From Salinibacter grassmerensis (GTDB lineage: Bacteria; Bacteroidota; Rhodothermia; Rhodothermales; Salinibacteraceae): a stretch of DNA of 64,000 nucleotides. The stretch covers positions 124,001-188,000 of the forward strand of contig NZ_CAMTTF010000004.1 of NCBI RefSeq assembly GCF_947077765.1, written 5' to 3'. A model generated the notes under the pieces. That model did not search any database. It saw nothing but the letters and a program-made list of their open reading frames with translations, and was not told the DNA's origin. Below, one piece after another: positions 4,325 to 50,164 of the stretch. The translations under genes and the position numbers were made by a program. How positions within the stretch are numbered: the stretch's first letter is position 1; the number at the start of each line of letters is the position of its first letter.

Positions 4325-4414
4325 GCAGGGGACAAGCGCGGACGAGAAGACGAGACGCCGGTGGGACTACGGGAAATTCCCGATGCGCCCGCGCTGTTTC
4401 CAGGACGCGCCGTC

Positions 4415-4879: not shown

Positions 4880-4956
4880 GAACGAACCGGTACCGCCAAA
4901 TACACACCTTCATTCGCGTTCTTCCCGAGTGCCCACACGAGCCTTATCCCGCGTCA

Positions 4957-5547
4957 CTAGACGTCGGAGCGGAGGCCCGAGCGGGTGCTCTCCGAATCGG
5001 ACGACTCCGGGACCGCATCCATACGGGACCGCACCTGTCGGCCCAACTGGTCAGCCGCTCGTTTGGCCGCGGGAAACCAAGACTCGGTCGCCTCGATCGT
5101 CTTGGGCAGGAGCTGCGCGACCGGGCGGTAGAGCGCCGAGTCGGTCCGCGTTTCCTTCTCCGGAAGCTCCAGGCCGGCGAGGACCAGAAAAAGCAGGCTC
5201 AGGAGCAACGCCGCCTTTGCCCCGCCGACCGCTCCCCCGGCCGCCCGGTTTAGAAATGAGAGGGACAGGGTGTCGAACAGCTGCTCCAGGAGCCGAGCCA
5301 GGACCAGAAACAGGAGATAGACGCCCAAAAACAGCACCGTGAAGCCGGCGAGCGGCGCGACGGACTCGGCCAGGCCCAGGCTCTCCACGATGAGGGTCCC
5401 CACCGCCCCCATAAACTCCACGGAGAACAGAAGCGCGGCCACGAGCCCCAGCAGACTGGCCGCCTGACGCACGGCCCCCACCAGGTACCCACGGATGAGC
5501 CCCGCGAGGAGGATGGCAAGGATAAGCCAGTCGAGCACAGTCAGCAT
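4957..5547 (-). CDS. CvpA family membrane protein
   Basis: Inner-membrane protein of 196 residues. The N-terminal half has four hydrophobic segments, starting with WLILAILLAGLIRGYLVGAV (the usual CvpA opening) and including the GAV/GGAKAALLLSLLFLV segment. The C-terminal third is soluble and charged. CvpA relatives are linked to colicin V production and, in other bacteria, to envelope stress tolerance. The family call is firm; the role here is not known. It sits in the leftward run between yqeY and an unknown gene. Confidence 0.85.
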   Translation of the reverse strand: MLTVLDWLILAILLAGLIRGYLVGAVRQAASLLGLVAALLFSVEFMGAVGTLIVESLGLAESVAPLAGFTVLFLGVYLLFLVLARLLEQLFDTLSLSFLNRAAGGAVGGAKAALLLSLLFLVLAGLELPEKETRTDSALYRPVAQLLPKTIEATESWFPAAKRAADQLGRQVRSRMDAVPESSDSESTRSGLRSDV

Positions 5548-5752
5548 GTCAACACCGCCGGTGAACTGGATGCGGGATCACGGCCGAAAAGATGAAGAAG
5601 AGATGCAATTATATAAAGCGGCCCGCGGGGACAAGGTTCACGGCAAAGAGGAGGGGCCCTGAAGCGGGTGGGCGACGCGCTGAAAAGCCCCGGAGCACGC
5701 GCCGGGTCCACCGCGCGGAGAGACGTCCCGACTGATCCGTCCAGGGGGCGGC

Positions 5753-6220
5753 CTAATCCGAGAGGCGATCCTGCACCATTTCTCGCACGCGGTTGCCGTC
5801 CACTCGGCCGCGCAGCTCGTCCATGGCGCGCCCCATGACCGGCCCCATGTCGGCCATCGAGGTGGCGCCCACGTCGTCGATGATGGCGTCAAGCCGCTCG
5901 GCCAGCTCTTCGTCGCTCAGCTGGTCTGGCAAATAGTCCTCGAGAACCTCAATCTCCTCCCGCTCTTTCTGGGCCAGGTCGTCGCGATCCGCCTCCTCGT
6001 ACTGTTCGATCGAGTCGCGGCGCTGCTTGACTTGCTTCTGGACGACGGCCAGTTCCTCCTGATCCTCGAGGCTGGAGTCGGACCCCGACCGCCGCTTCGC
6101 AATCTCTTTGTTGGCGAGGGCCGCCCGGAGCGATCGGAGGGCGCGCCGGCGCACGTCATCCTGCGCCTTCATGGCGTCGGTGAGGTCCTGCTTTACACGG
6201 TCGAGAACGGAGTCGGACAT
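5753..6220 (-). CDS. yqeY: GatB/YqeY domain protein
   Basis: Small helical protein of 155 residues with the YqeY fold, related to the C-terminal tRNA-binding tail of GatB. It starts SDSVLDRVKQDLTDAMKAQD and contains LRSLRAALANKEI and the C-terminal part DMGPVMGRAMDELRGRVDG typical of the family. The ATG at 6220 was chosen because the sequence upstream of it, though open, is not conserved in character. The exact function of free-standing YqeY proteins is unsettled; an amidotransferase or RNA-binding role is only assumed. Confidence 0.9.
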   Translation of the reverse strand: MSDSVLDRVKQDLTDAMKAQDDVRRRALRSLRAALANKEIAKRRSGSDSSLEDQEELAVVQKQVKQRRDSIEQYEEADRDDLAQKEREEIEVLEDYLPDQLSDEELAERLDAIIDDVGATSMADMGPVMGRAMDELRGRVDGNRVREMVQDRLSD

Positions 6221-6301
6221 GATTTGCGGTCGGAGATGACTGGAAGGGGATGAAGGGCGGGTACCTAAACAGGCCATGTGCTCTTTCAGCGCCGCTGCGG
6301 G

Positions 6302-8113: not shown

Positions 8114-8176
8114 GGCATAAGTGACTGGCAGTGGCGGCCTGCACTGAGTCCGGCCTCATGGCTCGAACAGGCCGGA

Positions 8177-8446
8177 TTAGAGCTCTTCTCCGAATCCATC
8201 CTCAAAAAGCGCCTCGATCGCGTCGGCGGCCTCGTCCTCGTCCGCCCCCTCCACCAGGAGCGTGAGCGTCGCGCCCTGCTCGGCGGCGAGGGTCATGACC
8301 CCGATGACACTCTTCCCGTTGATCTCGTAGTTGTCGCGTCGCAGGAACACATCCGCGTCGAATTGGGACGCGGTCTTGACGAGCATCGACGCCGGCCGCG
8401 TGTGCAGGCCGGCCCGGTTGCGGATGGTGACTTCGCGTTCAATCAT
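8177..8446 (-). CDS. ptsH: HPr phosphocarrier protein
   Basis: Phosphocarrier of 89 residues. RNRAGLHTRPAS places the phosphorylated His at position 15, and the regulatory site motif INGKSVIGVM places a Ser at position 46. The family keeps this Ser where HPr kinase/phosphorylase controls carbon use, so a regulatory role besides sugar transport is likely (inference). The ATG at 8446 gives the standard MIEREVTIRN start; open sequence upstream of it has no family similarity. It precedes ptsI on the same strand. Confidence 0.95.
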   Translation of the reverse strand: MIEREVTIRNRAGLHTRPASMLVKTASQFDADVFLRRDNYEINGKSVIGVMTLAAEQGATLTLLVEGADEDEAADAIEALFEDGFGEEL

Positions 8447-8542
8447 GGGGCGTTGAAGGGGGAACGGCGGCGGGCGATCCGCCCACCGGACTCCATTCTG
8501 GGGCTCTCCGGCGGGGCAACCGGCGACGGACAGTGGCAACGG

Positions 8543-9544
8543 TCAGTACTCACGCGCCTGCAGACGATCGAGGAGCCAGTGGAGCGCCTCCGCTGCGGCC
8601 GTGTCCGGGAGGAGGTGCAGATGGTCTCGGGCCTCCTCTGTGTACGTGCGGACTGCCTCCCGGGCCTCCTCGAAAATGCCAAGCTCCGCCATCCGCTCAC
8701 GGGCCTCCGGCACGTCGTCCACCGGAAGCCCCCCGTCGGTCACGAGACGTGCGAACCAGTCGTGCTCCCTCCCCTCGGCACGCTCCAGGGCGCGCAGGGT
8801 CAGGAACGTTTTCTTGCCCTGCACGAGATCGCCCCCCACTCCACGCCCCCACTCCTCCTCATCGTCGGCGGTGAGGTCGAGCAGGTCGTCCTGAATCTGA
8901 AAGGCCCGTCCCACCAGCCGGCCGGCCGTGCCGAGGCGATCACACTCGGGCGCCGGGGCCCCTCCGATGACGCCCCCCAGCTCGAACGCGGCCGAAAGGA
9001 GTGCCCCGGTCTTGCGGTCGATCATGTCCAGATAGGCCTCCACCGTCACCGCGTCGTCGGTCTCGAACGACGCGTCGAGGGCCTGGCCGGCACAGAGCCG
9101 CTCCACCATTGGGTGGTACACTGCGTAGAGGGCCTCTGCGTCCGCTCCGTCCACCTGGCCCAGCAGGTCGTAGGAGAGGCCCATCATGAGGTCTCCCGCA
9201 AGGATCGCCGTACCGGGGTTCCATTTCGCGTGCACGGTTGCGCCCCCCCGTCGCTCCTCGTCTTCGTCCATCAGGTCGTCGTGGACGAGCGTAAAGTTGT
9301 GAAACACCTCCACGGCGAGGGCGGCCGGCAGCGCCCGGTCGACGGACGTGCCGTACGACTGGGCCACCAGGAGAAGCAAGATGGGGCGCACACGCTTCCC
9401 GCCGGCCCGCAGCACGTGCTCCACGGCGTCGTAGAGCGAGGCGGGTGATCGCTCGTCCACCACCGCCGGCAGGGCCTCATCGATGCGCGCCCGCAGCGCC
9501 GCCACACGTTCATCGGACGACACGCTCTGCGTGGAGGAAGCCAT
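8543..9544 (-). CDS. Polyprenyl diphosphate synthase (trans-isoprenyl chain elongation)
   Basis: All-alpha isoprenyl diphosphate synthase of 333 residues. It condenses isopentenyl diphosphate onto an allylic diphosphate. The first Asp-rich motif is VHDDLMDEDEERRG and the second is FQIQDDLLDLTADDEE; GGKRVRP and the FHNFTLVHDD context are also present. It could make geranylgeranyl diphosphate for carotenoids or a longer quinone side chain; sequence reading alone cannot separate these. The ATG at 9544 was chosen; another in-frame ATG lies at 9577. ispH, from the same pathway, is about 3.5 kb away. Confidence 0.92.
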   Translation of the reverse strand: MASSTQSVSSDERVAALRARIDEALPAVVDERSPASLYDAVEHVLRAGGKRVRPILLLLVAQSYGTSVDRALPAALAVEVFHNFTLVHDDLMDEDEERRGGATVHAKWNPGTAILAGDLMMGLSYDLLGQVDGADAEALYAVYHPMVERLCAGQALDASFETDDAVTVEAYLDMIDRKTGALLSAAFELGGVIGGAPAPECDRLGTAGRLVGRAFQIQDDLLDLTADDEEEWGRGVGGDLVQGKKTFLTLRALERAEGREHDWFARLVTDGGLPVDDVPEARERMAELGIFEEAREAVRTYTEEARDHLHLLPDTAAAEALHWLLDRLQAREY

Positions 9545-9595
9545 TGGGGAATCGGGGTCAGCCAACGTGCTCAACAATCGTGCTCGGTGCAGCCC

Positions 9596-10234
9596 CTAGC
9601 GCTCAAGGGCATCCAGCGCCTCCTCGATGCGCCCGAAGACCTCTTCGATCCCTCCGGTCCCGTCCACCGGGACGAGCAGGTCTCGCTCTTCGTAGTACGT
9701 AGCCAGCGGCTCCGTCTCCTCGCGGTACACGTCGAGCCGGTTCTGGATGGTGTCAGGCTCGTCGTCGGAACGCTGGACGATGAGGTCCGAATCTACGTCG
9801 TCGGGGGGCGGGTCATGGTCGAGGTGATACGTTTCTCCCGTTTCCTCGTGGACCCGGCGCCGACTGAGCCGGCGCACGAGCACATCGTCGGGCACCTCCA
9901 TGCTGAGGACGGCGTCGAGGGGCGTCTCGTTCGACTCCGAGAACTCGGTCAGCCACTCCGCCTGCTGGTCGGTACGCGGGTAGCCATCGAGCATGAAGTC
10001 GTCGTGGCCCTCGTCGGCGATGGCCTGTTCGGCGAGATCACGGACCAGCGCGTCCGGCACCAGCTCCCCCGCGTCGATGTAGGACTTGGCCTTCGTGCCA
10101 AGCTCAGTCTCCTGCGCCATGGCCTCTCGGAGGATGTCTCCGGTCGAGATTTGGGTGATGCCGTGGCGCTCTTCCAACAGCCCGGCCTGCGTGCCTTTTC
10201 CGGCACCCGGCGGGCCAAAAATGATCAGTCGCAT
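9596..10234 (-). CDS. adk: Adenylate kinase
   Basis: Interconverts ATP plus AMP with two ADP. The 212-residue protein has the P-loop FGPPGAGKGTQAGLL at its start, AMP-site elements STGDILREAM and LDGYPRTDQQAEW, and a long LID domain (VHEETGETYHLDHDPPP) that lacks the four zinc Cys found in some relatives. The ATG at 10234 begins MRLIIFGPPGAGKG, the normal family start. It is in the leftward run just upstream of the polyprenyl synthase gene. Confidence 0.95.
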   Translation of the reverse strand: MRLIIFGPPGAGKGTQAGLLEERHGITQISTGDILREAMAQETELGTKAKSYIDAGELVPDALVRDLAEQAIADEGHDDFMLDGYPRTDQQAEWLTEFSESNETPLDAVLSMEVPDDVLVRRLSRRRVHEETGETYHLDHDPPPDDVDSDLIVQRSDDEPDTIQNRLDVYREETEPLATYYEERDLLVPVDGTGGIEEVFGRIEEALDALER

Positions 10235-10286
10235 CTGTGTGGGTCGGTCGTGCAAAAGAATGCGTGGACGGGGGTCTGGCGCACCC

Positions 10287-10808
10287 TCATTCGAAGAGCT
10301 CGTCCTCCAGTCCCGCTACGTCGGTGTCGTCGAGCCAGGAGAGGATTTGATCGCGGATCACCTCGCGGGCCACGAGGCGCACCACAAACCCGAGGCTATC
10401 GCCCAGGAACCCTCCGCCGGAGCGACTCGCCGAGGATGACTCTTCCCCATCGCCCCGGTACACCACGAGGGGGGCGCGCCCTCGCAGGGCCTCCTCCACG
10501 GCCTCGCCCGGCGTGTCGCCCGTCGCCATCGCCTCCTCCACCTCCGTGCGGAGGGCGTCGATATATTGATCCAGCAGCTCCGCGTGCTCGGGCCGCCGCG
10601 AACGGCCTCCCCCGACGAGGGCCCCCACCGCCACGCCGGCCGCCAGCATGCCGCCGACGCTCTTCAGCGGGTTCTGGACGACCCAGTCGCGCAGCGACGA
10701 GCCGGTGGTGGACACCTCATCCTGAAGCGAGTCGAAGCGGTCGGCCATGGCGTCCGCTGTTTCTCGAAGGCGCGCCTCCACATCCGCTCTGGTCGAGTCC
10801 GAGTCCAT
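10287..10808 (-). CDS. Envelope-associated protein resembling the DUF883/YqjD type
   Basis: A 173-residue protein. An N-terminal amphipathic helix (about residues 8-35) is followed by a Gly-rich hydrophobic stretch VGGMLAAGVAVGALVGGG near residues 50-68, as in ElaB/YqjD-type inner-membrane, ribosome-associated proteins. The rest is an acidic helical tail. It precedes adk and follows a holin-X-like gene that also resembles the neighbouring YqjE type, which supports a paired membrane function. The assignment rests on architecture rather than a strong motif. Confidence 0.55.
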   Translation of the reverse strand: MDSDSTRADVEARLRETADAMADRFDSLQDEVSTTGSSLRDWVVQNPLKSVGGMLAAGVAVGALVGGGRSRRPEHAELLDQYIDALRTEVEEAMATGDTPGEAVEEALRGRAPLVVYRGDGEESSSASRSGGGFLGDSLGFVVRLVAREVIRDQILSWLDDTDVAGLEDELFE

Positions 10809-10865
10809 GGGGCAGAAAGGGTCGTAAAACAGATTAGTCGAAAAGGCCTGGCGCCTGGGTGCCCA

Positions 10866-11384
10866 CTACGCCTCTATATCTGTATCGGGCGCGGAAGTGC
10901 GCGTCTCGGAGGCGCCCGCCTCGTCCACCGCGGCCGAGGCGGAGCGGGCCGAGGGGCCCTCATCCGACGCGGCCTGTTCTCCACGAAGAGACTCCAACAG
11001 GTTGGACGGCGGCATCAGGGTGGGCTTCGTCACGCGGAGGGTCACGATGATCAGGATGAGCGCCACCGACACCGCGAGGAATCCCCAGAACGGATGCCCA
11101 AGCAGCCACCCCACCCCCAGTGCCACGGTCGTCAACGAGAAGAACGCGGCGAAGAAGGCAAACACGGCGACCGTGAGCCCAAGCGCCAGGTCGTTCTTAA
11201 ACGCGTCGAGCCGCTCCTCCACCTCCAGAATCGCAAGGTCGGCCCGCAAGTCAATCCACTCTCGGAGGTCCGTGAAGAGCCCCTGTGTGTGGGCCGCGAT
11301 GCGACTCACCTTGCCGCCGTCGGGGGACTCCTCCACGGGGCGTTCGGCGTTCGGGGCCGACGGGCGGTCGTCGAGGGACTCCAT
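10866..11384 (-). CDS. Phage-holin-family (holin-X/YqjE-like) membrane protein
   Basis: Membrane protein of 172 residues from the ATG at 11384. An amphipathic segment (LREWIDLRADLAILEVEERL) precedes two hydrophobic hairpin segments, LGLTVAVFAFFAAFFSLTTV and FWGFLAVSVALILIIVTL. The tail is polar. This arrangement is that of the chromosomal holin-X/YqjE family, which is not a phage lysis gene despite the name. The longer open frame to 11525 is rejected as a start because its extra residues are not acidic or helical like the rest. Confidence 0.7.
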   Translation of the reverse strand: MESLDDRPSAPNAERPVEESPDGGKVSRIAAHTQGLFTDLREWIDLRADLAILEVEERLDAFKNDLALGLTVAVFAFFAAFFSLTTVALGVGWLLGHPFWGFLAVSVALILIIVTLRVTKPTLMPPSNLLESLRGEQAASDEGPSARSASAAVDEAGASETRTSAPDTDIEA

Positions 11385-11575
11385 GACCGAGTAGGGAGAC
11401 GTGAAGCTGGAAAGGTGGAGAGTGATAAGATACCATATTCTGCGGAAGACGCAAGTGAATTCACCGTACAACACCAGCGGTCGTTCCACCGTGAACTCAC
11501 CTGTACGGTCCCCGTTTTGCGACATCTGACGTCGTCTCTTCTCCCTTTCCCACCGACCCCGGTTCCAGAACCCCC

Positions 11576-11851
11576 ATGGCCACCACGCAGGCGGAGTCGA
11601 CCCCCAACCCGAACAGCCTCAAGTTCACGACGGACGAGGGCCCGTTTCTCGACGACGGCGTGGCCGCGTACTCCTCAGCGGACGAGGCCGCGGACGATCC
11701 CCTCGCCCGCCGTCTCTTCACGGTGTCGGGGGTAGACGACGTGTTCATCACCCCCCAGTTCGTCACCGTCTCGAAGGCCCCCGCCGTCGACTGGAGTCGC
11801 GTGAAGCCGGACGTAGAGACGATTCTGGCCGAGCACCTGGAGGCGGCGTAG
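11576..11851 (+). CDS. NifU N-terminal-like (Nfu scaffold-type) protein
   Basis: A 91-residue protein of the Nfu N-terminal family, in which this domain accompanies Fe-S scaffold proteins. Motifs: ESTPNPNSLKF at the start, then DPLARRLFTVSGVDDVFITPQFVTVSK. The Cys-containing NifU-like scaffold domain is absent, so it is a stand-alone N-domain and cannot bind a cluster itself with Cys ligands. It is the first rightward gene after the leftward run and ends 2 bases before the convergent LuxC-like gene. Confidence 0.85.
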   Translation: MATTQAESTPNPNSLKFTTDEGPFLDDGVAAYSSADEAADDPLARRLFTVSGVDDVFITPQFVTVSKAPAVDWSRVKPDVETILAEHLEAA

Positions 11852-11853
11852 CG

Positions 11854-12915
11854 TCAGCGCAGGGCCCGCACGAAGTTGGCGACGGCCTGTCCCCCATCGT
11901 CCGCGAGGGGCGGGAGGTGAAGGTCGCCCGGCGTGCGGAGCGGCCAGGTCTCGGGCAGCTGGTCGTGCAGCGGCTCGCGGGCCACGACCGCGCCGAGCAC
12001 CGACCGGTGGTCGTCAATCCAGTCGCCGACCGCGTCCAGGTCCCCGTACTCCGTCCACCGAAGGTGCCCCTCGGGGCTCGGCTCCGTCGGATCGCCCCGG
12101 CTTACGAGAAACTCAAGGCCCTCGGCGTAGGCCCGCGGCTCGTCCCGGGCCTCGAGGAACGCCTTCTGCATCTGGAGGGCGCCCGGCGTATCCTCGTGCG
12201 CCGGGAAGACGCCGCGAAAGCGCGCCATCGCTTCGAGGTACGGGTCCGGGGACAGGTCGCTCGGGGCCCATAGGAGCGCGAGCCGCCGGTGCCCGCCGCC
12301 CTCATAGAGCAGCGCATCCTCCGCCAGTCCGCCCTGAGCGTCGTCGCCCTCGTGCCCGTCGAGGACCGCCACAGCGCGCTGGGAAGGACGCACGAGTCGA
12401 CGGTCGTCCGCGATGTTGTGGTCGTCGCACGCCTCGCGGACCGCGGCGGCGCCCTCTCGGGCCGGCTGCGCCGTGACCGCGGAGGCGCGTTCGAGGAGGG
12501 CCCCCTTCTCCACAAACGCCGCGTCGATGCCGTCGGCCCGGTCCATCACCGCTTGCGCAAACGCGGGAAGCAGGGCGGGCGAGACTTCGGGCGTGTGTCC
12601 GAGGTACGTGTGCCCCTCGGCCCACACCGCCACGGCGTCCCGGAACCCCACGAGGGGGCCGGACGGGCCGTGCAGAACGCCCACCGTCGTACGGGCCTCC
12701 GGGGCTCCGTCGCCCAGCCACTCGGCAAGGGCCTCGGGCGTGAGGCGCTGCATCCACCGGTTGAGGGCGTAGTCGAGCGCCTCTTCGGTCCACCGGTTGG
12801 GCGCCTCCAGGGTATCGGCAACGGCCGTTTCGCGGGGCGGATGGTCCGGCTCCCGCCAGTCCGCGGCGGCGTCGGCAATGGCGTCGATGCGGGCTTGCTT
12901 CGAGCTCACGTACAC
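11854..12915 (-). CDS. Acyl-CoA reductase, LuxC-like
   Basis: A 353-residue protein resembling the LuxC-type acyl-CoA reductases of Bacteroidota, an aldehyde-dehydrogenase-fold family that makes aldehydes from acyl-CoA. Supporting segments are VGVLHGPSGPLVGFRDAVAV with GHTYLGHT (family PLVGF.D and GH), RPSQRAVAVLDGHE (family N+ sVAVL GnE), and the C-terminal LRTPGDLHLPPLADDGG that replaces the family Q.P.L.DYADGVDT. The nucleophilic Cys is not evident at the expected place, so the activity may be altered. Transcribed towards the NifU-N gene. Confidence 0.7.
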   Translation of the reverse strand: MYVSSKQARIDAIADAAADWREPDHPPRETAVADTLEAPNRWTEEALDYALNRWMQRLTPEALAEWLGDGAPEARTTVGVLHGPSGPLVGFRDAVAVWAEGHTYLGHTPEVSPALLPAFAQAVMDRADGIDAAFVEKGALLERASAVTAQPAREGAAAVREACDDHNIADDRRLVRPSQRAVAVLDGHEGDDAQGGLAEDALLYEGGGHRRLALLWAPSDLSPDPYLEAMARFRGVFPAHEDTPGALQMQKAFLEARDEPRAYAEGLEFLVSRGDPTEPSPEGHLRWTEYGDLDAVGDWIDDHRSVLGAVVAREPLHDQLPETWPLRTPGDLHLPPLADDGGQAVANFVRALR

Positions 12916-13088
12916 ATGGGGTAGTCAGGGAGACACGACACGTGTTTTGCTGCGCCCTGCACGCGCACCCCGGCACCGGTTGTTCCTCCTTCACGCCCTC
13001 CACACGTCGGCCCGCTCTGAATCACCGGCGGTCCCCTTCCGTACGACCGGGCGGAGTGTCACTGTCCTCCCGCGATTTCCGACTGCTT

Positions 13089-14330
13089 ATGCGCCAGTTC
13101 GACGTTCCCACGTTCTACAAAAGCCCCATCATCTCGACGGTCACGGACGCGCGCCAGGCCACCGACCCGCGCAAAAAAGACCTGTCTCCATCGGTGATCG
13201 ACTTCGGGCCGGTCCGCTTTAAAATCGCGCGCCACTTCGGCTTCTGCTTCGGAGTGGAGCAGGCCATCGAGATCGCGTACGAGGCGCTGGACGAAAACCC
13301 CGGCAAACGGATCTTCCTCCTCTCGGAGATGATCCACAACCCGCACGTGAACGAGGACCTGCGGGACCGCGGAATCCAGTTCCTGCGCACCACACAGGGG
13401 GAGCAGCTCATCCCGTTCGACGAGCTGGAGCCCGACGACGTGGTCATCATTCCAGCCTTTGGCACCACGCTGGAGGTGGAACAGGAGCTCGAAAAGCACG
13501 GGGTCGACACCGAGACCTACGACACCACCTGCCCGTTCGTCGAGAAGGTGTGGCGCAAGAGCTCCCAGATTGGGGATGACGACTACTCGATCGTGGTCCA
13601 CGGCAAGCGGTACCACGAGGAGACGCGCGCGACGTTCTCCCACGCGAAGGAGGAGGGGCCGGTGGTCGTCGTGCGAGACATGGAGGAGGCGGAAGAACTG
13701 GCGAAGGTGATCCGGGGCGAGAAAGACGCCGGCTTCTTCTACGACTACTTCGAGGACAAGTACTCGGAGAACTTTGACCCGGAGCAGGACCTGCGGAAGC
13801 TGGGCGTGGTCAACCAGACGACCATGCTGGCGGAGGAGACCGCCGCCATTGCGGACCTGATGCGCGACGCCATGATGGAGCGCTACGGCGAGGCCAACGT
13901 CGAGGAGCGCTTCGCCGACACGAGCGACACGCTCTGCTACGCCACCAACGAAAACCAGAACGCCACGAAGGTGCTCATCGAGGACGGGGCCGACCTCGGC
14001 ATCGTCGTGGGCGGCTACAACTCCTCGAACACGAGCCACCTCGTGGAGCTCTGCGAGGAGCACATGCCGACCTACTTTATCCGGGACGCCGGCGAGTTCG
14101 ACGCCCCGTCGGAGATTCATCACTTCGACGTCCACGCGAAGGAGGAGGTCGCGACGGACGACTGGTTTCCCGCCGAGGACACGCCGGTCGACGTGCTGCT
14201 CACCTCCGGGGCCTCCTGCCCCGATGCCCTGCTCGACGAGGTCGTCCGCAACATCATCAGCTGGTTCCCGGACGCCCGTCCCGTGGAGGAGGCCATTGCT
14301 CCTTTCAAGGAGGACTTGGACGACGGGTAG
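13089..14330 (+). CDS. ispH: 4-hydroxy-3-methylbut-2-enyl diphosphate reductase
   Basis: Last enzyme of the MEP isoprenoid pathway, an Fe-S protein producing IPP and DMAPP. The three cluster Cys are all present: HFGFCFGVEQAI, DTTCPFVEKV and TSGASCPDALLDEVV. VVNQTTML and ATNENQNAT, with GGYNSSNTSHL, mark the substrate pocket. The 413-residue form starting at 13089 (MRQFDVPTFY) is of the longer IspH type seen in Bacteroidota and plants. The open frame continues upstream to 12942 but is not conserved in character. The polyprenyl synthase nearby uses its product. Confidence 0.95.
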   Translation: MRQFDVPTFYKSPIISTVTDARQATDPRKKDLSPSVIDFGPVRFKIARHFGFCFGVEQAIEIAYEALDENPGKRIFLLSEMIHNPHVNEDLRDRGIQFLRTTQGEQLIPFDELEPDDVVIIPAFGTTLEVEQELEKHGVDTETYDTTCPFVEKVWRKSSQIGDDDYSIVVHGKRYHEETRATFSHAKEEGPVVVVRDMEEAEELAKVIRGEKDAGFFYDYFEDKYSENFDPEQDLRKLGVVNQTTMLAEETAAIADLMRDAMMERYGEANVEERFADTSDTLCYATNENQNATKVLIEDGADLGIVVGGYNSSNTSHLVELCEEHMPTYFIRDAGEFDAPSEIHHFDVHAKEEVATDDWFPAEDTPVDVLLTSGASCPDALLDEVVRNIISWFPDARPVEEAIAPFKEDLDDG

Positions 14331-14423
14331 GTGCTTCTCGTTGACCACTGCACTGGGTGACCGATCACGTTGGGGGCGACCGCGGTCGCCGTTCCTCCCC
14401 CGTCTTCTCCCTTCTCTCCACAC

Positions 14424-15167
14424 ATGCCCTGGTACGAAGAGTGGTTCTGGAGCGACGCGTACACCCGCGTCTACGACCACCGAGACGACGCGGAGGCCGA
14501 GCGGCTGGTCGACCTGATTGAGCAAAAGATCGCGCCGGCCTCGGGGGCCCACATCCTCGACATCGGCTGCGGCCGGGGCCGGCACGCCCGGGCCCTCGCC
14601 CGGCGCGGCTGGCACGTGACCGGCCTCGACCTGTCGGAGGCCGCCATCGCGGCGGCGCGGTCGAGGGTGGCCGGCGACGACCTCGACGTGAGGGCCTCCT
14701 TCCAAGTGGGCGACATGCGCACCCCGGTGTGCGATGGGTGTGCGGACGGGGTCGTCAACCTGTTCACGTCCTTCGGCTACTTCGACGCGGACGCTGAGAA
14801 TGAGCGCGCCCTCGCGGCCATGGCGACGGCCCTGCGGCCCGGCGGGTGGTTCCTCCAGGACTTCCTTAACGCCCCCCACGTTGCCGAGTCGCTGGGGCCC
14901 TCCGAGTACGAGACCGAGGATGGACACACCATCCACCAGGACCGCTGGATTGAAGACGGCCGTGTTAACAAGAAGATCACCGTCCACCAGAATGGCCACA
15001 CGGAGACCTTTCAAGAGAGTGTGCGCCTGTACACGCTGTCCGATCTGACGGACATGCACGCCCGAGTGGGCCTCGAGGTCGTGGAGCTGTTTGGGGACTA
15101 CGACGGGGGCAGCTACGTCCCCGGCGAGAGCCCGCGCCTCCTGCTTCACGCCGTACGCCCAACGTGA
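14424..15167 (+). CDS. SAM-dependent class I methyltransferase
   Basis: A 247-residue Rossmann methyltransferase. Motif I is ILDIGCGRGRHARALARRGW, followed by VTGLDLSEAAIAAAR and VNLFTSFGYF. It begins MPWYEEWF, with the opening WYEEWFWSDAYTRVYDHRD shared by a Bacteroidota subgroup. Substrate unknown. It lies 94 bases after ispH on the same strand and may be cotranscribed; about 230 bases separate it from the next start. Confidence 0.88.
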   Translation: MPWYEEWFWSDAYTRVYDHRDDAEAERLVDLIEQKIAPASGAHILDIGCGRGRHARALARRGWHVTGLDLSEAAIAAARSRVAGDDLDVRASFQVGDMRTPVCDGCADGVVNLFTSFGYFDADAENERALAAMATALRPGGWFLQDFLNAPHVAESLGPSEYETEDGHTIHQDRWIEDGRVNKKITVHQNGHTETFQESVRLYTLSDLTDMHARVGLEVVELFGDYDGGSYVPGESPRLLLHAVRPT

Positions 15168-15395
15168 CGAAGGCAGTCCGTGCGTCTCCAGCCGTGGCGC
15201 ACACTACTCTCAAGGGAGGCTCTCGCCACGCGGGGGCCCGAGACGGAGACGCAGTGCCCGTTTCGTGAAACATCCGATCCCTCCGTCTGGACATGCGGCC
15301 TCTTTTCTTGTATTCTGTGGGTTCCCGTTGCCAGAACCATGAGGGAAACCCTTCCTGCTCTCTCGAACGTCGCTCATCGCAAGTTGATACCGCCC

Positions 15396-16766
15396 ATGGA
15401 CACCGCGCTCAGCTACGCCGACCGCCACGCCGACCGGTTCGTCAGCGAGCTTCAAGAGCTCCTGCGCATCCCGTCGGTCAGCACCGACTCCGCCTACGAC
15501 GACGAGGTGGAGCGGGCCGCCCAGTGGCTCACCGACCACTTCGACGGCATCGGGATGGAGCACACCGAGATCATCGAGACCGACGGCCATCCCCTCGTCT
15601 ACGCCGAGCACATCACCGACCCCGACAAGCCGACCGTCGTCGTGTACGGCCACTACGACGTGCAACCGCCCGACCCGCTGGAGGAGTGGTCCACCGACCC
15701 GTTCGAGCCAACCCGGCACAACGGCGCCCTGCACGCCCGCGGTGCATGCGACGATAAGGGCCAGATGTTCATGCACGCGAAGGCCGCCGAGGCGTACCTG
15801 TCGGCCGAGGGCGACCTTCCGGTCAACCTCAAGTACATCATCGAAGGCGAGGAGGAGACCGGCTCGATGGCGATCGAGACGTACGTCCGCGATCACGGGG
15901 AGCGGCTCGACGGCGACGTCGTCCTCGTTTCGGATACGGCCATGTTTTCGCCGGAGACGCCGTCGATCACGTATGGCCTGCGCGGGCTGGCCTACGCCGA
16001 GATCACCCTGGAGGGCCCGAACCGCGACCTCCACTCCGGCAACTACGGCGGCGCCGTGGACAACCCGGCCAACGCGCTCAGTCGCCTTGTCGCCGGCCTG
16101 CACGACGACGACCACCACATCGCAATCCCTGGGTTCTACGAGGACGTGCGCGACCTGACGGAGGCCGAGCGCGAGACCTACGCCGACCTCCCGTTCGACG
16201 AGGCGGCCTGGCGGGACACCATCGGCATCGACGACGTGCGGACCGAAGGGGGCTACACAACGCTCGAATGCCTCTCGGCCCGCCCCACACTCGACGTCAA
16301 CGGCATCTGGGGCGGCTACACCGGTGAGGGCGCCAAGACGGTGCTGCCGTCCCAGGCCCACGCCAAGCTCTCGATGCGCCTCGTGCCCGACCAGCAGTTG
16401 GGGGACATCTACGACAAGCTGGAGGCCCACCTGGAGGCGGAAGTGCCCGACACGATGACCTTTTCCATGCGGCGGCTGCACGGGGGCGAGCCGGTGCTCG
16501 TCGACCGGTCCGCCCCGCCAATGCAGGCCGCAAAGGACGCGATGGGCGAGGTGCGCGGCACCGATCCGGTCTTCGTGCGCAACGGCGGCACGATCCCGGT
16601 GGTGGCGGACTTCCAGAACCACCTGGGCCTGGACAGTGTGCTTATGGGGTTTGGGCTCGACTCCGACGCCATCCACTCCCCCGACGAGCACTTCGGCCTC
16701 GACCGCTTCCACCAGGGCATTCAGGCCATCATCCGGTTCCACGACCACTACGCCGCGATGGCCTAA
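15396..16766 (+). CDS. M20 family dipeptidase / metallopeptidase
   Basis: Cytoplasmic di-zinc peptidase of 456 residues. The metal and catalytic motifs are in order: GHYDVQPPDPLEEW (first His and Asp), RGACDDKGQ (bridging Asp), EGEEETGS (catalytic Glu pair), DLHSGNYGG (dimerisation-domain His), and a late HSPDEHFGLD (last His). It resembles the ArgE/DapE/CPG2-like dipeptidase branch. The start at 15396 gives MDTALSYADRHADRFV; open sequence upstream looks non-coding. It is the last host gene before the split tRNA. Confidence 0.93.
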   Translation: MDTALSYADRHADRFVSELQELLRIPSVSTDSAYDDEVERAAQWLTDHFDGIGMEHTEIIETDGHPLVYAEHITDPDKPTVVVYGHYDVQPPDPLEEWSTDPFEPTRHNGALHARGACDDKGQMFMHAKAAEAYLSAEGDLPVNLKYIIEGEEETGSMAIETYVRDHGERLDGDVVLVSDTAMFSPETPSITYGLRGLAYAEITLEGPNRDLHSGNYGGAVDNPANALSRLVAGLHDDDHHIAIPGFYEDVRDLTEAERETYADLPFDEAAWRDTIGIDDVRTEGGYTTLECLSARPTLDVNGIWGGYTGEGAKTVLPSQAHAKLSMRLVPDQQLGDIYDKLEAHLEAEVPDTMTFSMRRLHGGEPVLVDRSAPPMQAAKDAMGEVRGTDPVFVRNGGTIPVVADFQNHLGLDSVLMGFGLDSDAIHSPDEHFGLDRFHQGIQAIIRFHDHYAAMA

Positions 16767-16957
16767 ACTGCCCCGGTGGACGCGTGCCGCGCTTCCACTC
16801 TCGTGTTTCTTCGGGGTCGGGTCCCCGGTCGGGATGGGCGGCCGGGGGACGGTGCGGCCCGGAACCTGAGGGATGATCTACGAATTGAGCCCCCTCGGTA
16901 TCCACAGGGCCGCCCGCCGCACCTCTTCGGGGCCCCGGCGGATTCAACCGCACTCTT

Positions 16958-16997
16958 GCCCGAGTGGCGGAATTGGCAGACGCGACGGATTCAAAAT
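16958..16997 (+). pseudogene. 5' half of host tRNA-Leu(CAA), interrupted by the prophage
   Basis: The sequence GCCCGAG (acceptor 5' strand), TG, the D arm GCGGAATTGGCAGA, and the anticodon stem ACGGA with loop TTCAAAA read as a normal tRNA-Leu up to the anticodon loop, then stop matching at 16998. The missing 3' half begins at 49880, and its CTCGGGC (49928-49934) is the exact complement of GCCCGAG. The anticodon stem ACGGA likewise pairs with TCCGT on the far side. The gene is therefore cut in the anticodon loop and cannot give a tRNA from either end. Confidence 0.93.
16988..16997. other. attL core
   Basis: GATTCAAAAT, shared with 49880-49889 (attR). The bases to its left belong to the host tRNA and those to its right to the phage. 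Bases immediately outside the core differ (ACG before it here, ACA at attR), which limits the identity to 10 bases. Confidence 0.9.
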
Positions 16998-17051
16998 GGT
17001 GTGTCGGATTCTCATAAACTACTACAAAACATAGACTTACAAAAATAAAAA

Positions 17052-17076
17052 CCGCAAAGGGGTAGTCCCTTTGCGG
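17052..17076 (-). terminator. Rho-independent terminator of the leftward phage operon
   Basis: Perfect 10-bp stem CCGCAAAGGG (17052-17061) and CCCTTTGCGG (17067-17076) with a 5-base loop. Read leftward it is followed by a U-rich run (17041-17051). It lies beyond the phage tRNA gene, so leftward transcripts reaching it pass antisense through that tRNA. Confidence 0.88.
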
Positions 17077-17092
17077 CGCTTATAACTACGTT

Positions 17093-17179
17093 GGCGGTGT
17101 GGTGGAATTGGCAGACACGCGGGATTCAAAATCCTGTGGGGTTTGTAGCCCCGTGTGGGTTCGAGTCCCACCACCGCTA
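17093..17179 (+). tRNA. Phage-borne tRNA-Leu(CAA)
   Basis: A complete cloverleaf can be drawn. The acceptor is GGCGGTG/CACCGCT with a terminal G-U pair. The D arm GTGGAATTGGCAGACAC is close to the host copy. The anticodon stem is CGGGA/TCCTG with loop TTCAAAA (anticodon CAA). A long class II variable arm (GGGG...CCCC) and a T arm GTGGG-TTCGAGT-CCCAC follow. The CCA end is not encoded, whereas the host gene encodes it. It has the same anticodon as the gene split by the prophage and probably replaces it in the lysogen. It differs from the host gene in acceptor, variable and T arms, so it is not a recent copy. Confidence 0.95.
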
Positions 17180-17368
17180 CTTCTTCGCCACGGTCTTCGC
17201 TGCGTGCTCTCCAACGTTGCCCAAAGCGTAGATCCCTGCCGTCCACTTTACAAGTTCAACCCAAAGCTCCGGCGGCAAGATACCGACTGTTAAAAAGGTG
17301 GTCGCCGATACGAAGACAATTAGCGTTACTTGGAGCTTTCTCGACTTTAGTTTTTCGGTGTAGTCCAT
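17177..17368 (-). CDS. Small membrane protein, holin-like
   Basis: A 63-residue protein with two hydrophobic stretches: LQVTLIVFVSATTFLTVGIL (about 13-32) and a weaker WTAGIYALGNVGEHAAK near the end. A short charged N-terminus (DYTEKLKSRK) precedes them. Size and topology suit a holin, but no family motif was recognised. It is the last gene of the leftward late operon, and its TAG overlaps the 3' end of the oppositely directed tRNA by 3 bases. An unusual hairpin (AGCGG...CCGCT with inner GGGC/GCCC) lies in the 85-base gap upstream. Confidence 0.5.
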   Translation of the reverse strand: MDYTEKLKSRKLQVTLIVFVSATTFLTVGILPPELWVELVKWTAGIYALGNVGEHAAKTVAKK

Positions 17369-17453
17369 AGGATCGTTAATTTAGCGTTCTAAGCGGCTGA
17401 AGGGCAGGGGCTTACCGATGCCCTTTCCCCCGCTTTTTATAATCTTTTGTTGG

Positions 17454-17711
17454 TTATAAAGGTAGCCCAAATACTACTGCCAAAATAGCGTGGATAACAA
17501 AAAGCCCACCTACGACGTAGTTAATCCAACGAGAGTTTTTATTTACTTTCTCTTTCAAATCGGACTGGCTTTGTATACGCTCTTCTTGCGCTGCGTTGGA
17601 CTGTTCGAGGCGGCGCAAGCGCCCGTTTATTTCGTCCATCCGATCTGCTATTTTCTTTTTTCTCTCGTTTAGCCTTTGCAGGCTTTGAATTACTTTCTGC
17701 TCGTTGTCCAC
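17454..17711 (-). CDS. Coiled-coil/single-TM protein, XhlA-like (lysis-associated)
   Basis: An 85-residue protein starting at GTG. Residues 1-58 form a charged coiled coil (QSLQRLNERKKKIADRMDEI, GRLRRLEQSNAAQEERIQSQ), followed by NSRWINYVVGGLFVIHAILA, one C-terminal membrane segment. This layout is that of haemolysin XhlA, a holin partner in Bacillus phages. A downstream ATG within the coil is an alternative start. It lies upstream of the holin-like gene and overlaps another ORF at its 5' end. Confidence 0.55.
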   Translation of the reverse strand: MDNEQKVIQSLQRLNERKKKIADRMDEINGRLRRLEQSNAAQEERIQSQSDLKEKVNKNSRWINYVVGGLFVIHAILAVVFGLPL

Positions 17712-42739: not shown

Positions 42740-43189
42740 TTAATTTCTATTTTGGTAAATTCCGCACGAAAGTTTTCTAACTACGCTCTTGGTAGCGCCG
42801 TACTTTTCCGCTACTTCACCGCTGGTCTGTTCGGTGTTTCTAACTTCGCGCTTCATATCGTTTAGCTCTTCTACGCTGTACTTGGAGCTTCTTCTAACAT
42901 TTTCTTTCCTAGTAACCCACTGCAAGTTATTTATGTCGTTGTTCGATTTGTCTTCGTCTATGTGGTCTACTTCGTGGTCTTCGCTAGGCTGCTCCGGTCC
43001 GAAGTTCTCCATAACAAGTCTGTGGACGTTGAACGTCTTGCCCTGCCCGTCGGAGCTAATTCTTATGATTCTATAACCGTTGTTTTGATTTGTCTGTACT
43101 TTAAGCTCTCTTCCGGAGTGCTTTGACCATACCCTTCCGTCGTCGCTTATTTTGTGGTTAAATCCGTCGATATCTTTCCAGTTTGCCAT
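42740..43189 (-). CDS. HNH homing endonuclease (NUMOD4 + HNH_3)
   Basis: A 149-residue free-standing endonuclease. N-terminal NUMOD4 (WKDIDGFNHKISDDGRVWS) leads to the HNH motif FNVHRLVMENFG, HEVDHIDEDKSNNDINNLQW and VTRKENVRRSS. The C-terminal helix-turn-helix (GEVAEKYGATKSVVRKLSCG) is for DNA binding. It is the first gene of the leftward operon, next to the control region, and carries GAACCAC directly before its ATG. Confidence 0.9.
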   Translation of the reverse strand: MANWKDIDGFNHKISDDGRVWSKHSGRELKVQTNQNNGYRIIRISSDGQGKTFNVHRLVMENFGPEQPSEDHEVDHIDEDKSNNDINNLQWVTRKENVRRSSKYSVEELNDMKREVRNTEQTSGEVAEKYGATKSVVRKLSCGIYQNRN

Positions 43190-43466
43190 AGTGGTTCGTT
43201 TGTTTAAGGTTTTATGTCTTCTTCGTCTATTGTTATGTATGTTTCTATCTTATAAAGTTCGAATAATCTTCTTTTGCGTATACACGAACTTCGCAAAACG
43301 GTCTTATATGTATAAACAGAAGCGGGACACAAGAACCACCGACACACAACCTGTTTGGCGACGGCAAGCTTAAAAGCGTTTAGTTGGTGGTTCGGTTATC
43401 CGCTTATAGCCTGCCGTCGCCTTTTATTTGCTAAAAACCGAACCACAAAACATAATATAAAAAGAA
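43190..43466. promoter_or_regulatory. Phage divergent control region
   Basis: This 277-base gene-free stretch separates the leftward operon from the rightward early module. It contains four GAACCAC motifs in alternating orientation: 43191-43197 (reverse), 43333-43339, 43387-43393 (reverse) and 43440-43446. It also holds the pseudoknot-capable element described separately. The left half is T-rich with no clear -10. It could hold the lysogeny operator and/or an origin. Confidence 0.6.
43357..43446 (+). ncRNA. Candidate pseudoknot RNA element in the polymerase-like gene leader
   Basis: Stem 1 pairs GGCGACGGCA (43357-43366) with TGCCGTCGCC (43412-43421), with an inner AAGCG/CGCTT helix and TTTTA after it. 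The loop segment GTGGTTCGGTT (43387-43397) is exactly complementary to AACCGAACCAC (43436-43446) downstream, forming an H-type pseudoknot. The loop could alternatively pair with AACCACC at 43334-43340 upstream, so two exclusive structures exist. The ATG of the polymerase-like gene follows 20 bases later. A riboregulator, an attenuator or a replication signal are all possible. Confidence 0.55.
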
Positions 43467-44945
43467 ATGAACAACACGATACTATTTGGAGCAGATAAAG
43501 GCATTTCTGGAGAGATCGCCTCTAAGCTTATAGACGACGAAGTTTTAACTTTGCCGCCGCAAAAGACTTATCGAAACAAAAGGCGCAAAGAGCTACGACG
43601 CTTTCTTTACAACTTGATACACGCCCGTAGTCTAACAAAGGCAAGAGATACAGCCGTAAAAGTAGCTCTTCCGCTAAGAGAGATAAACCAAAACAACTGC
43701 TACAACGGCAAAGTAAGTTACAGCGGGTTGAAAGCAGTTATGAGCGACTTGCAAGAAAGCGGCTACCTTTACGTTAACAAAGGCAGCTTCTTCGTAAACT
43801 GCTCTAAGGAGTGGAAAGAGGCTTGTCTTGAAGACGGAAATCTAAAGAACAGGTGTACGGAAGTTTGGGGCACCCGAAAACTAAACAGTCTTATAGACGA
43901 CTACCTTAGAGAGAATACAGACGTTGGAGCAGACGTAGACTTGCTCGTTACCTCTACCGGAGTCGAGATCAAAGACAAAGAAGGGCAGGTAGTCGGAAGC
44001 GTCGAAAAAGAAGACGAAGTTGAAAAGGTAAAAGAAGTAGACGACGCCACTGCCTCTGCCGTTACCCTCTCTCTCCCTCTGTCCTCTCTTGTCTCCTCCA
44101 TAAGTGTTAGAACATCCCCCCTACGGGCGCAAGGGGGCGCAAGCTCTTCCCTCTCCACCTCTTCACTCTCTCTCCCCTCCATTAATGTTAGAACATCCCC
44201 CCCCGTCCCTTACAAAGAGCAAGAAACAGCAATCGACAAACTACACAACGTTGTTGTCCACAGGATCGGGGCTGCGTGGAGTTGGAAGCACCGAATCGAA
44301 GACGGGCGGCTTGTTTACGAGGTGCCGGAAGAAGCCCTAAGCAACACAAGAAAGTACGTAAGGGGCAGTTGGAATAAAGGGGGGCGCTTTTACAACGACG
44401 TGCAAAACGTTCCGTCCGATTGGCGAAAGCATCTCCGAATCGAAGGCGAAGAGGTAGTAGAGCTAGACTACGACAACCTGCACTTTAATATGCTCTACGC
44501 GAAAGAAGGCGAAGAGCTAGAAGGCGACGCGTACAAGACGACTTGCAATTTGCTTGAAGAGCTTGCAAGAGACGTAAACAAAACTACGGCAAACGTAATG
44601 CTCAACGCACGAAGCCCACAAGCCTTGTACGGGTGCCTTAAAAACAACATAGACTGGAAAGAAGAGGTAGGGGTAAGCATACCCGACGAAGCTTTTAAGC
44701 CGCTTGTAAACGCCTTAAGAGACAGGCACGAGCCGATAAAAGAATGCTTCCACTCCGACGTAGGGGTTAGCTTGCAGTACGAAGACAGCCGACTTGCCTA
44801 CGAAGTTATAACGGAGACGGGGGGCACGCTTGGGGTCCACGACGGCTTTGTTGCGAAGAAAAGCAAAGAGCAAGAGCTTCGAAAGAATATGAAAGAGGCG
44901 TTCCGAAGCGAGTACGGGCAAGACATTTCTGTGTCATCGGAATAA
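43467..44945 (+). CDS. Polymerase-like phage replication protein (family-A palm-like motifs)
   Basis: A 492-residue protein in two parts. Residues 1-150 contain a winged-helix-like region (YSGLKAVMSDLQESGYLYVN). A Ser/Leu-rich linker covers 190-250. Residues 255-492 carry motifs in the order of a single-subunit polymerase palm: VVELDYDNLHFNMLYA (motif A-like Asp), RDVNKTTANVMLNARS (motif B-like Arg...Lys) and LGVHDGFVAKKS (motif C-like HD). RFYNDVQNVPSDWRKHL precedes motif A. First gene of the rightward module. A replicative or priming polymerase is inferred; no exact family is assigned. Confidence 0.6.
   Translation: MNNTILFGADKGISGEIASKLIDDEVLTLPPQKTYRNKRRKELRRFLYNLIHARSLTKARDTAVKVALPLREINQNNCYNGKVSYSGLKAVMSDLQESGYLYVNKGSFFVNCSKEWKEACLEDGNLKNRCTEVWGTRKLNSLIDDYLRENTDVGADVDLLVTSTGVEIKDKEGQVVGSVEKEDEVEKVKEVDDATASAVTLSLPLSSLVSSISVRTSPLRAQGGASSSLSTSSLSLPSINVRTSPPVPYKEQETAIDKLHNVVVHRIGAAWSWKHRIEDGRLVYEVPEEALSNTRKYVRGSWNKGGRFYNDVQNVPSDWRKHLRIEGEEVVELDYDNLHFNMLYAKEGEELEGDAYKTTCNLLEELARDVNKTTANVMLNARSPQALYGCLKNNIDWKEEVGVSIPDEAFKPLVNALRDRHEPIKECFHSDVGVSLQYEDSRLAYEVITETGGTLGVHDGFVAKKSKEQELRKNMKEAFRSEYGQDISVSSE
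44105..44204 (+). repeat. 81-base direct repeat inside the polymerase-like gene
   Basis: TGTTAGAACATCCCCCC occurs at 44105-44121 and again at 44186-44202, each preceded by a CTCTC-rich tract, and encodes VRTSP twice in the linker. The TGTT..AACA core is a palindrome. The repeat period (27 codons) keeps the frame. Repeated sites inside an initiator gene recall lambda O and its internal origin. Confidence 0.6.
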
Positions 44946-48625: not shown

Positions 48626-49705
48626 CTATAAACTGTCCATCATATCTTCTAGGTCTCCTGCGTCGAGGTGGGCGTACATCGAAACGATTCGCCTTGAAGA
48701 CTGCCCCACCATTCTAGCTATTTTCTCGTACGAGTAGTCTTTTTTAACTAGCTCTGTAATAAACATATGCCGCAAGCTGTGGTTGGTCATTTCCTCGTAG
48801 CCGATTTCCGTTAAGAAGTGCCCTGTACGCCTAGACCAGTTCGAGCGGTCAACGTGCGTTTCTCTCTGTGGGCTTTCAAAGACGTAAGGGGTCGTTCCAT
48901 CGTTGTCTATTAGCTGTATCTCGTCCCATATGTGCTTTAAGGGGATTACCCTGTTTTTGCGCTTAAACTGTATCGTCGCCGTCCGGTTAGACTGGTTTAG
49001 GTAAGCGTACTTGCCCCTGTCCGTAAACGTTTTGTGCCAAGTTAAACGTATTACCTCTCCGATTCGAAGCCCCGCGTTTGCTTGTATCCATAGGGCTTTC
49101 CAAAGCCTGTCGTCTTCGTTGTATACGCGGTGCTTAATTTCTTTTTTGATCTCGTCAAACTCTTTTTGAGAGGGTACTTCTACGTCCGATTCCGGTTGCG
49201 GTATGTGGATCCGGCTAAATGGTCTACTGTCTATAACCTGTTGGTCGTGCAGCCAAGAAAAGAAGCTTGATAGGTGGCGCAAGTTCGTTTCTACTGTCGT
49301 TGAAGAAACCGACTGCAAGCGCCAGTACTTGAAGTCTCTTATGTGGTCCTCGTTGGGCTCTGCGGTTAAAATATAAGGGTCGATTCCCGATTCTTCTTCG
49401 ATCCAACGACCAAACATTTTTAGTGCAAGTCTGTCGCTGTTGATCGTATAGTCGGACAGTTCCCCCGCCCGTTCTTTCATCCGTCGAAGCTCTAAATAGT
49501 CTTCTTTCGCCTCTTCGAACGTCGTGTCTGCTAGGTCTTCCCCCCGTTCCAGTTTGCGGTAGTAGTCGTCCCACTTGCGCTGCTTTTTCTTTGCTTCGGT
49601 CTCTTCTTTTGTCTTCAAAGAAAAGCCGACTCGCTCTTTTTCGTCCTCTTTGGTTACGTAGGCTTGGTAGTAGTAGACGCCCCTTTTCGTGTAGATACTG
49701 GACAT
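48626..49705 (-). CDS. int: Phage integrase, tyrosine recombinase
   Basis: A 359-residue recombinase expected to catalyse integration at the tRNA-Leu core. The N-terminal arm-binding domain starts SSIYTKRGVYYYQAYVTKED; a SAM-like core-binding domain spans about 60-165. Catalytic residues: Arg in NAGLRIGEVIRL (near 212), Lys in RKNRVIPLKH, HSLRH (near 308-312), and the nucleophile Tyr in SMYAHLD (near 343). The usual GHSS box reads VGQSSRR, with Gln for His. It lies about 170 bases from the attR core. The dead integrase at 50165 is a clear relative. Confidence 0.93.
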   Translation of the reverse strand: MSSIYTKRGVYYYQAYVTKEDEKERVGFSLKTKEETEAKKKQRKWDDYYRKLERGEDLADTTFEEAKEDYLELRRMKERAGELSDYTINSDRLALKMFGRWIEEESGIDPYILTAEPNEDHIRDFKYWRLQSVSSTTVETNLRHLSSFFSWLHDQQVIDSRPFSRIHIPQPESDVEVPSQKEFDEIKKEIKHRVYNEDDRLWKALWIQANAGLRIGEVIRLTWHKTFTDRGKYAYLNQSNRTATIQFKRKNRVIPLKHIWDEIQLIDNDGTTPYVFESPQRETHVDRSNWSRRTGHFLTEIGYEEMTNHSLRHMFITELVKKDYSYEKIARMVGQSSRRIVSMYAHLDAGDLEDMMDSL

Positions 49706-49879
49706 ATGCAGAGTTGCGTTATGACCGTTTCGACTTGATGTCGGGACGACAAGGTCGAGTTGCAGGTTCCAAAAAAGCGGTAGTTATAGGGGTTGCAAAT
49801 TCACTACCTTGCACTGTTTCGCAACAGCATAAAGCGTTGACAGACAACGGGTAAGGTCGGGTGTAAAAGAGCCCTCACA

Positions 49880-49889
49880 GATTCAAAAT
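49880..49889. other. attR core
   Basis: GATTCAAAAT matching attL at 16988-16997. The phage side to the left (CCCTCACA) does not supply a tRNA 5' half. Confidence 0.9.
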
Positions 49890-49938
49890 CCGTTGTCCTT
49901 TCCTGGACGTGAGGGTTCAAGTCCCTCCTCGGGCACCA
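49880..49938 (+). pseudogene. 3' half of host tRNA-Leu(CAA), with encoded CCA
   Basis: From the anticodon loop: TTCAAAA, TCCGT, a class II variable arm (GTCCTTTCCTGGAC), T arm GAGGG-TTCAAGT-CCCTC, acceptor CTCGGGC (49928-49934), discriminator A and CCA (49936-49938). Its acceptor and anticodon-stem strands complement the 5' half at 16958. No promoter or 5' half lies upstream in the prophage, so it should not yield a tRNA. Confidence 0.93.
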
Positions 49939-50164
49939 CCTCACCAGGGCTGGGGAGCCCTCTTGAACGCCGCTTGGAGGGAAGTAACAGAGGTTTCTTG
50001 TCTATCTTTCTCCTGTTCTACCTTTCTCCCCTCCCTCTCGTCTCCGGCCAGATGGTAGTAAAGATCGAGCTAATCGGTCGTAAATCCGGCGAACTGGCTC
50101 CGTATCTCCGTGTAGCCCGGGAGAGCTAAATCACGCTCTCCGGCAACCACAAATCGGGGTCGCT

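Follow-up and report, generated by a model that had tools for sequence, protein, structure and literature searches.

A hairpin followed by a T-run was found in the leader of a polymerase-like replication gene of a prophage of a halophilic bacterium, and the hairpin loop is complementary to one segment upstream of the hairpin and to another between the T-run and the start codon. The layout was improbable by chance and recurred with different letters in five loci, belonging to four lineages. By analogy with the immunity RNA of phage P4, the leader may be an RNA off-switch for the replication polymerase, a reading for which we see the balance as close to even. The hairpin is best read as an attenuator releasing a short RNA, which would repress the polymerase gene in trans.

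The window, the whole stretch of 64,000 nucleotides analysed (G000:C4:124001-188000), belongs to a host genome of 3.78 Mb. The leader sits inside a prophage with terminase, portal and tyrosine integrase genes, where, at about 17 kb, the GC content falls from 66-68% to about 47%, climbing back near 50 kb. The structural genes of the prophage run leftward and the polymerase-like gene runs rightward; the leader occupies the gap between the latter and an HNH endonuclease gene. This HNH gene carries a NUMOD4 motif (42740-43189, minus strand), adjoins the leader on its upstream side and probably encodes a homing endonuclease. The left edge of the prophage carries a tRNA-Leu(caa) (17093-17180), and the right edge a 3' remnant resembling tRNA-Leu (49866-49939). 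In the anticodon region both contain GATTCAAAATCC, which may be the attachment core.

The label "polymerase-like" held, as the predicted model of the protein resembles family A DNA polymerases (best structural match 8jrb, E 4.8e-6; mean pLDDT 72, with the C-terminal part confident). Residues D334, K372, H458 and D459 were invariant in 23 sequences, and the protein was 45-49% identical to its relatives. In the searched genomes the closest gene relatives were L005 and L003, and L008 was full-length and more distant. Widening the profile search to the class and phylum added L038/L064 (G138), L039/L065 (G111) and weaker matches. Scans of viral and genome contigs with a single protein as query gave no relatives. 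The family phrog_4756 is annotated as of unknown function, and about 130 records of Vibrio, Aeromonas and related phages contain relatives of the protein.

Table 1. Positions in the window of the leader elements and of two genes of the prophage.
Feature	Position	Strand	Remark
Candidate -10 element TATAAA, TG before it	43311..43316	+	Putative promoter, read from the letters only
Outer extension of the upstream pairing, AAGCGGG	43320..43326	+	Partner TCCGCTT, 43399-43405
A, upstream complement of the loop, GAACCACCGAC	43333..43343	+	11 bp with 43383-43393, one G-U
Stem S, 5' arm, terminator-like, GGCGACGGCA	43357..43366	+	
Inner stem, 5' arm AAGCG	43374..43378	+	MFE fold; 3' arm CGCTT, 43401-43405
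L, loop segment, GTTGGTGGTTCGGTT	43383..43397	+	Partner A or A'
Stem S, 3' arm, TGCCGTCGCC	43412..43421	+	
T-run, TTTTATTT	43422..43429	+	Right after stem S
A', downstream complement of the loop, AACCGAACCAC	43436..43446	+	11 bp; ends 20 nt before ATG
Replication protein gene, presumably regulated	43467..44945	+	492 aa, phrog_4756; C-terminal family A polymerase-like palm
Prophage tyrosine integrase	48626..49705	-	

As the initial annotation had stated, the arms of stem S paired at 10/10 positions and the loop matched the downstream segment over 11/11 bases (GTGGTTCGGTT, 43387-43397, with A'). The upstream pairing was present too, and its length had been understated at 7 bases: A and GTTGGTGGTTC form a helix of 11 pairs including one G-U, with an outer extension of 7 bp. 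Both loop pairings use 43387-43393 and are therefore mutually exclusive, as had been claimed; A and A' are direct repeats of each other. The inner stem encloses a 22-nt apical loop. With the T-run directly 3' of it, stem S has the form of an intrinsic terminator, a feature absent from the initial annotation and unlisted by the consensus scanner because the scanner's loops are limited to 3-8. The candidate -10 element had no good -35 and was unreported in the consensus promoter scan; a transcription start near 43322-43325 would possibly make the upstream complement the 5' end of the RNA. The leader had been said to match no known family, and the Rfam covariance-model scan likewise gave no gathering-score match (best 21.6 bits vs a cut-off of 80), with chance-level matches only at permissive thresholds.

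Homologous leaders that keep the gene and lose the pairings had been named as the observation that would speak against the switch. All five of the closest leaders (5/5) keep the hairpin, the T-run and a loop complement at the start; the more distant homologues are without this architecture. A structured leader whose loop can pair upstream or downstream, before the polymerase-like gene, is borne out, and its architecture is conserved in four other loci. The five are the leaders of the window, of L005 (a second element of the same genome, on C5), of L003 (Salinivenus lutea, from the congeneric genome G001), and of L038 and L039 (two other genomes of the same class). Their letters are largely unrelated and gave no usable consensus. 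The T-run follows the hairpin in all five, more weakly in L038 than in L003, L005 and L039. The downstream complement, near the first gene, is likewise found at every locus, is weakest in L005, and ends 3-15 nt before ATG in the relatives against 20 nt in the window. The upstream complement is present in 3/5 (window, L003 and L005), and L038 and L039 have a second downstream copy instead.

The L003 hairpin has 20 contiguous pairs, a 20-nt loop (TTTTCAGCTTGCTCAGTCTT) and the T-run ATTTTCTATTT, counted from the last G-C pair; its complements are GAAGACTGGCAAGC upstream and AAGACTGA downstream, the latter ending 9 nt before ATG. The L005 hairpin is that of L003 with some letters changed. Its upstream complement AGGCTGGTAGGC forms 12 bp with three G-U pairs, and its downstream complement AAGACTG ends 10 nt before ATG, with GCAAG extending the pairing across a bulge. 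L005, on the minus strand, also has an extra hairpin TGACCGCAAGGTCA between T-run and A', which L003 lacks, and the 5' side of this hairpin can pair with the terminator 3' arm (TGCGGTTGG/CTGACCGCA). The L038 stem GAACTGGA/TCCAGTTC, with inner GCTTGG/CCAAGC, presents the loop TTTCTACTTCA, all 11 bases of which are complementary to TGAAGTAGAAG, 3 nt before ATG; a partial second copy of this complement is also present. In L039, the stem AGCAGGGGGT/ACCCCCTGCT is followed by TTCTTTTT, the loop is TTTTCCGATCCG, and GGATCGGA occurs twice before ATG.

The layout was absent from the leader of L008 (entry L036), and the architecture was not found in the leaders of distant homologues, tested three ways. 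Isolated low-P hits in L036, L072, L025 and L013 were excluded for a complement far from the start, the lack of a T-run or a G-U-rich match. An exact search of viral contigs for the L003/L005 hairpin returned none, and a DNA search of 60 related genomes with the leader gave hits above background only in the host's own C5 element and in G001.

With the stem held fixed, the chance scores of the window loop were 24/2000 against shuffled upstream sequence, 17/2000 against shuffled downstream sequence and 1/2000 for both jointly. None of 1000 dinucleotide shuffles of the 214-nt window leader reached the score of the whole triad, and 0/1000 did so in L003 and in L005. In scans of the leaders of alignment homologues, L003, L005, L064/L038 and L065/L039 came out low-scoring or shifted in register, owing to competition among nested stems. 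L003, L005, L038 and L039 were judged by a targeted test and a control-gene test. In the targeted test, the chance P of L:A in the window was 164/20000, and that of L:A' was 33/20000, 686/20000, 22/20000 and 216/20000 in the window, L003, L038 and L039, respectively. The contiguous L:A' match of L005 was weak alone (4528/20000), and reached 56/2000 with a bulge allowed. Fisher's method over the downstream tests of the window, L003, L038 and L039 gave about 1e-6, the L038 and L039 hairpins in this combination having been picked by eye.

A two-strand scan of 165 kb ranked the window triad third of 247 by summed pairing energy; the two above it were the homologous L003 leader in another register and a triad in GC-rich host DNA. 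The control-gene filter combined a stem, a T-run and a loop complement near the start, and was applied to 415 ATG-started ORFs. Nine of the 415 passed, namely 5/5 close rep leaders and 4/410 others, with the rep five having the best five scores; the thresholds were fixed after the five rep leaders were known, so these counts show rarity and are not an independent test.

L003 and L005 differ by 8 substitutions in 41 tested pairs of the 5' hairpin, A:L and S. Seven of the eight retain a standard pair by changing to or from G-U, and the remaining one disrupts a pair at the edge of A. Pairing was 98.8% against 40-48% in slid controls, a gap that partly reflects the structure having been read off L003 and L005 themselves, and with two sequences a column-shuffle control is uninformative. 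Recurrence with unrelated letters is stronger evidence than this covariation. The same comparison bears on the repeats as DNA, with A, A' and the inverted copy L serving as binding sites for a repressor or for the replication protein. The direct repeats A and A' would suit such sites, as would the two copies of the L039 motif before the start. However, the inverted copy is always found within the loop of a hairpin with a T-run, and the upstream pairing of L005 survives three changes that create G-U pairs, which weaken a DNA repeat and not an RNA helix; we regard binding sites of this kind as highly improbable.

The predicted folds depended on the length of the transcript. When it ended at L, the MFE structure was the A:L helix in the window, L003 and L005 (-33.5, -42.6 and -36.5 kcal/mol, respectively), and when it was cut at the T-run, with the 3' arm included, the fold was the S hairpin. 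A:L followed by S is the predicted order for an antiterminator and then a terminator. The full L003 leader reverted to A:L in its predicted fold, and folding alone therefore does not settle the balance between A:L and S. These folds would also suit a simple attenuator in cis, in which A:L is the antiterminator, the terminator-like S hairpin of the longer transcript the terminator, some signal shifts the balance and A' is incidental. Yet A' is the part kept in 5/5 loci and A is missing from two, and the Rfam scan detected neither a ligand-binding domain nor an Rfam riboswitch in the leader, which makes attenuation of this kind improbable.

The loops differ in which targets they would recognise. 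Predicted pairing of the L003 and L005 loops with each other's targets gave -16.9 and -27.9 upstream and -22.3 and -10.9 downstream. Both matched the window targets poorly (-3.4 and about -1; for the C5 loop of L005, -3.4 and -1.0 kcal/mol). The window loop gave -20.1 and -21.0 with its own targets and -11.6 to -14.2 with those of the others. It discriminates less sharply, which its G- and U-rich composition probably explains. The pair of elements in genome G000 carries unrelated loops and is thus predicted to be largely, not perfectly, independent. T4 DNA polymerase gp43 represses its own translation by binding its leader RNA, and here, too, a polymerase gene opens with a structured RNA, which invites the same explanation. 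The loops are unrelated despite 45-49% protein identity, though, and a site bound by the protein is expected to keep its letters; as the exact loop complements would also be left unexplained, we give autoregulation by the polymerase hardly any weight.

A switch acting in cis only deserves more attention. Here an L:A' pseudoknot within the same mRNA would set polymerase translation in competition with A, and an antisense RNA from the opposite strand might compete as well, as in IncI-alpha/IncB (ColIb-P9 repZ). The complementarity of loop and start region in five loci fits this scheme, proximity favours pairing in cis, and studies cited in PMC10724649 establish that pseudoknot and antisense RNA compete in the control of IncI-alpha. 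Cis and trans pairing would look the same in the layout of the letters. Against the cis-only switch, a leader peptide shared by the window, L003 and L005 was not seen by eye; the window has a TTG-started frame (43355-43498), and no short ORF is conserved between it and the L003 and L005 leaders. A second hairpin closing the start region was not found either: the start and A' regions are unpaired in the folds of the window and L038, leaving nothing to open, and L039 has a weak hairpin at the rep start. The promoter scan listed no sigma-70-like site opposite the hairpin-to-start region, with the caveat that host promoters may not fit that consensus. Moreover, the T-run and the upstream complement would be without a role, and we find the cis-only switch rather unlikely. 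Of the earlier proposal of a riboregulator or plasmid-like copy-control RNA, the switching leader stands and the plasmid type gives way: the three-part layout of the P4 type and the terminator form fit better, and the P4 type is preferred because no opposite-strand promoter match, shared leader peptide or start-closing hairpin was found.

Under the preferred P4-like reading, hairpin S and the T-run would halt most leader transcripts, and termination would free a short RNA, roughly 100 nt long, that displays L in its loop. L would then bind A', which on read-through mRNA closely precedes the polymerase start codon, and hinder ribosome loading. In the window, L003 and L005, A is predicted by folding to pair with L in the nascent transcript and so to delay the terminator; capture of A in trans by the L of the short RNA would remove this delay and enforce termination. 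More copies of the element would give more short RNA and less polymerase, amounting to immunity or copy control. Several points count against this scheme. The window A' lies far from ATG for direct occlusion of the ribosome, L038 and L039 are without an upstream complement, and the distant homologues are without the layout. The released RNA would also hold both A and L and might pair with itself unless trimmed.

The carriers of the other leaders are small. The L005 carrier (about 10.7 kb, G000:C5 ~241650-252330; L057, L058) has a 52-bp tRNA-Ser repeat at its far end, and the L003 carrier (about 13.2 kb, G001:C3 ~112500-125800; L060) is bounded by a repeat at tRNA-Leu. Both are of satellite-like size and contain an integrase and the polymerase-like gene, and no capsid genes were recognised among the ORFs examined. 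The carriers of L038 and L039 (about 10-11 kb; L081 ~7627-17664 and L082 ~3606-14750) come from two genomes of one class, have large serine recombinases (Pfam) and seem to interrupt a gene resembling comM/yifB, an identity read from the translated ends. Leader and rep gene occur in carriers of both the tRNA and the serine-recombinase type, and the leader therefore travels with the replication gene across integration types.

RNA-only immunity is known in detail for a few enterobacterial phages, namely P4, P1/P7 and N15. We tentatively propose, with more doubt than conviction, an independently evolved P4-like RNA immunity and copy control guarding the family A polymerase-like protein of integrated elements in Rhodothermia. 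The hairpin would be both terminator and source of the antisense loop, and the loop letters would set incompatibility groups, letting the two elements of G000 coexist. If so, a sequence-unrelated counterpart in Rhodothermota would suggest that RNA-only immunity arose more than once, loop-based immunity groups would be readable from sequence, and the control would attach to a replication protein of a family annotated as of unknown function.

Known systems share parts of this layout. In IncI-alpha/IncB repZ, too, the loop of a hairpin is complementary to a stretch preceding a replication gene; that system needs a leader peptide, a second hairpin covering the start and an opposite-strand RNA, none of which was found here by folds, by-eye ORFs and the consensus promoter scan. 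The pT181-type attenuator has a leader terminator before a replication gene and a competing pairing; unlike here, its competitor pairs with a terminator arm and its trans RNA is a countertranscript. The C4 antisense RNA of P1/P7 and the related N15 RNA control antirepressor genes. They resemble the present proposal in being short antisense RNAs from the leader of the transcript they control, and differ in these antirepressor targets, with no Rfam match here. IsrK of the prophage Gifsy-1 is one of two products of a single promoter, a short RNA that ends at a terminator and interacts with the read-through mRNA, and P4 has been named as a structural parallel (PMC4825925). The interaction of a terminated short RNA with read-through mRNA is alike, whereas the short IsrK activates translation and repression is proposed here.

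P4 itself is the closest comparison, and the window layout agrees with it in order and position. In P4 lysogens, the CI RNA, produced by processing, comes from an untranslated leader and makes transcription terminate early by base-pairing with the upstream seqA and the downstream seqC (PMC4825925). In contrast, the hairpin here ends in a T-run, the guarded gene is family A polymerase-like and not P4 alpha, and the second complement of L038 and L039 lies downstream, not upstream. By eye, no sequence relation is evident between the hairpins of P4 and the window, and no common descent is claimed. As a positive control, the same scan was run on P4. Its top result lay in the annotated cI region and was a hairpin with the loop GGCAGCCTCC, which can pair with GGAGGCTGCC, 3 nt before ATG; the upstream match of this hairpin was only 6 bp, weak, and is not claimed as seqA. 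P4 measures 11.6 kb, close to the 10-13 kb of 4/5 carriers here. In both systems, the loop of a leader hairpin (seqB in P4) has one complement upstream (seqA; here found for the window, L003 and L005, not L038 and L039) and another immediately before the first gene (seqC; five loci here), and the replication genes of an integrated element are what the leader guards or, here, would guard.
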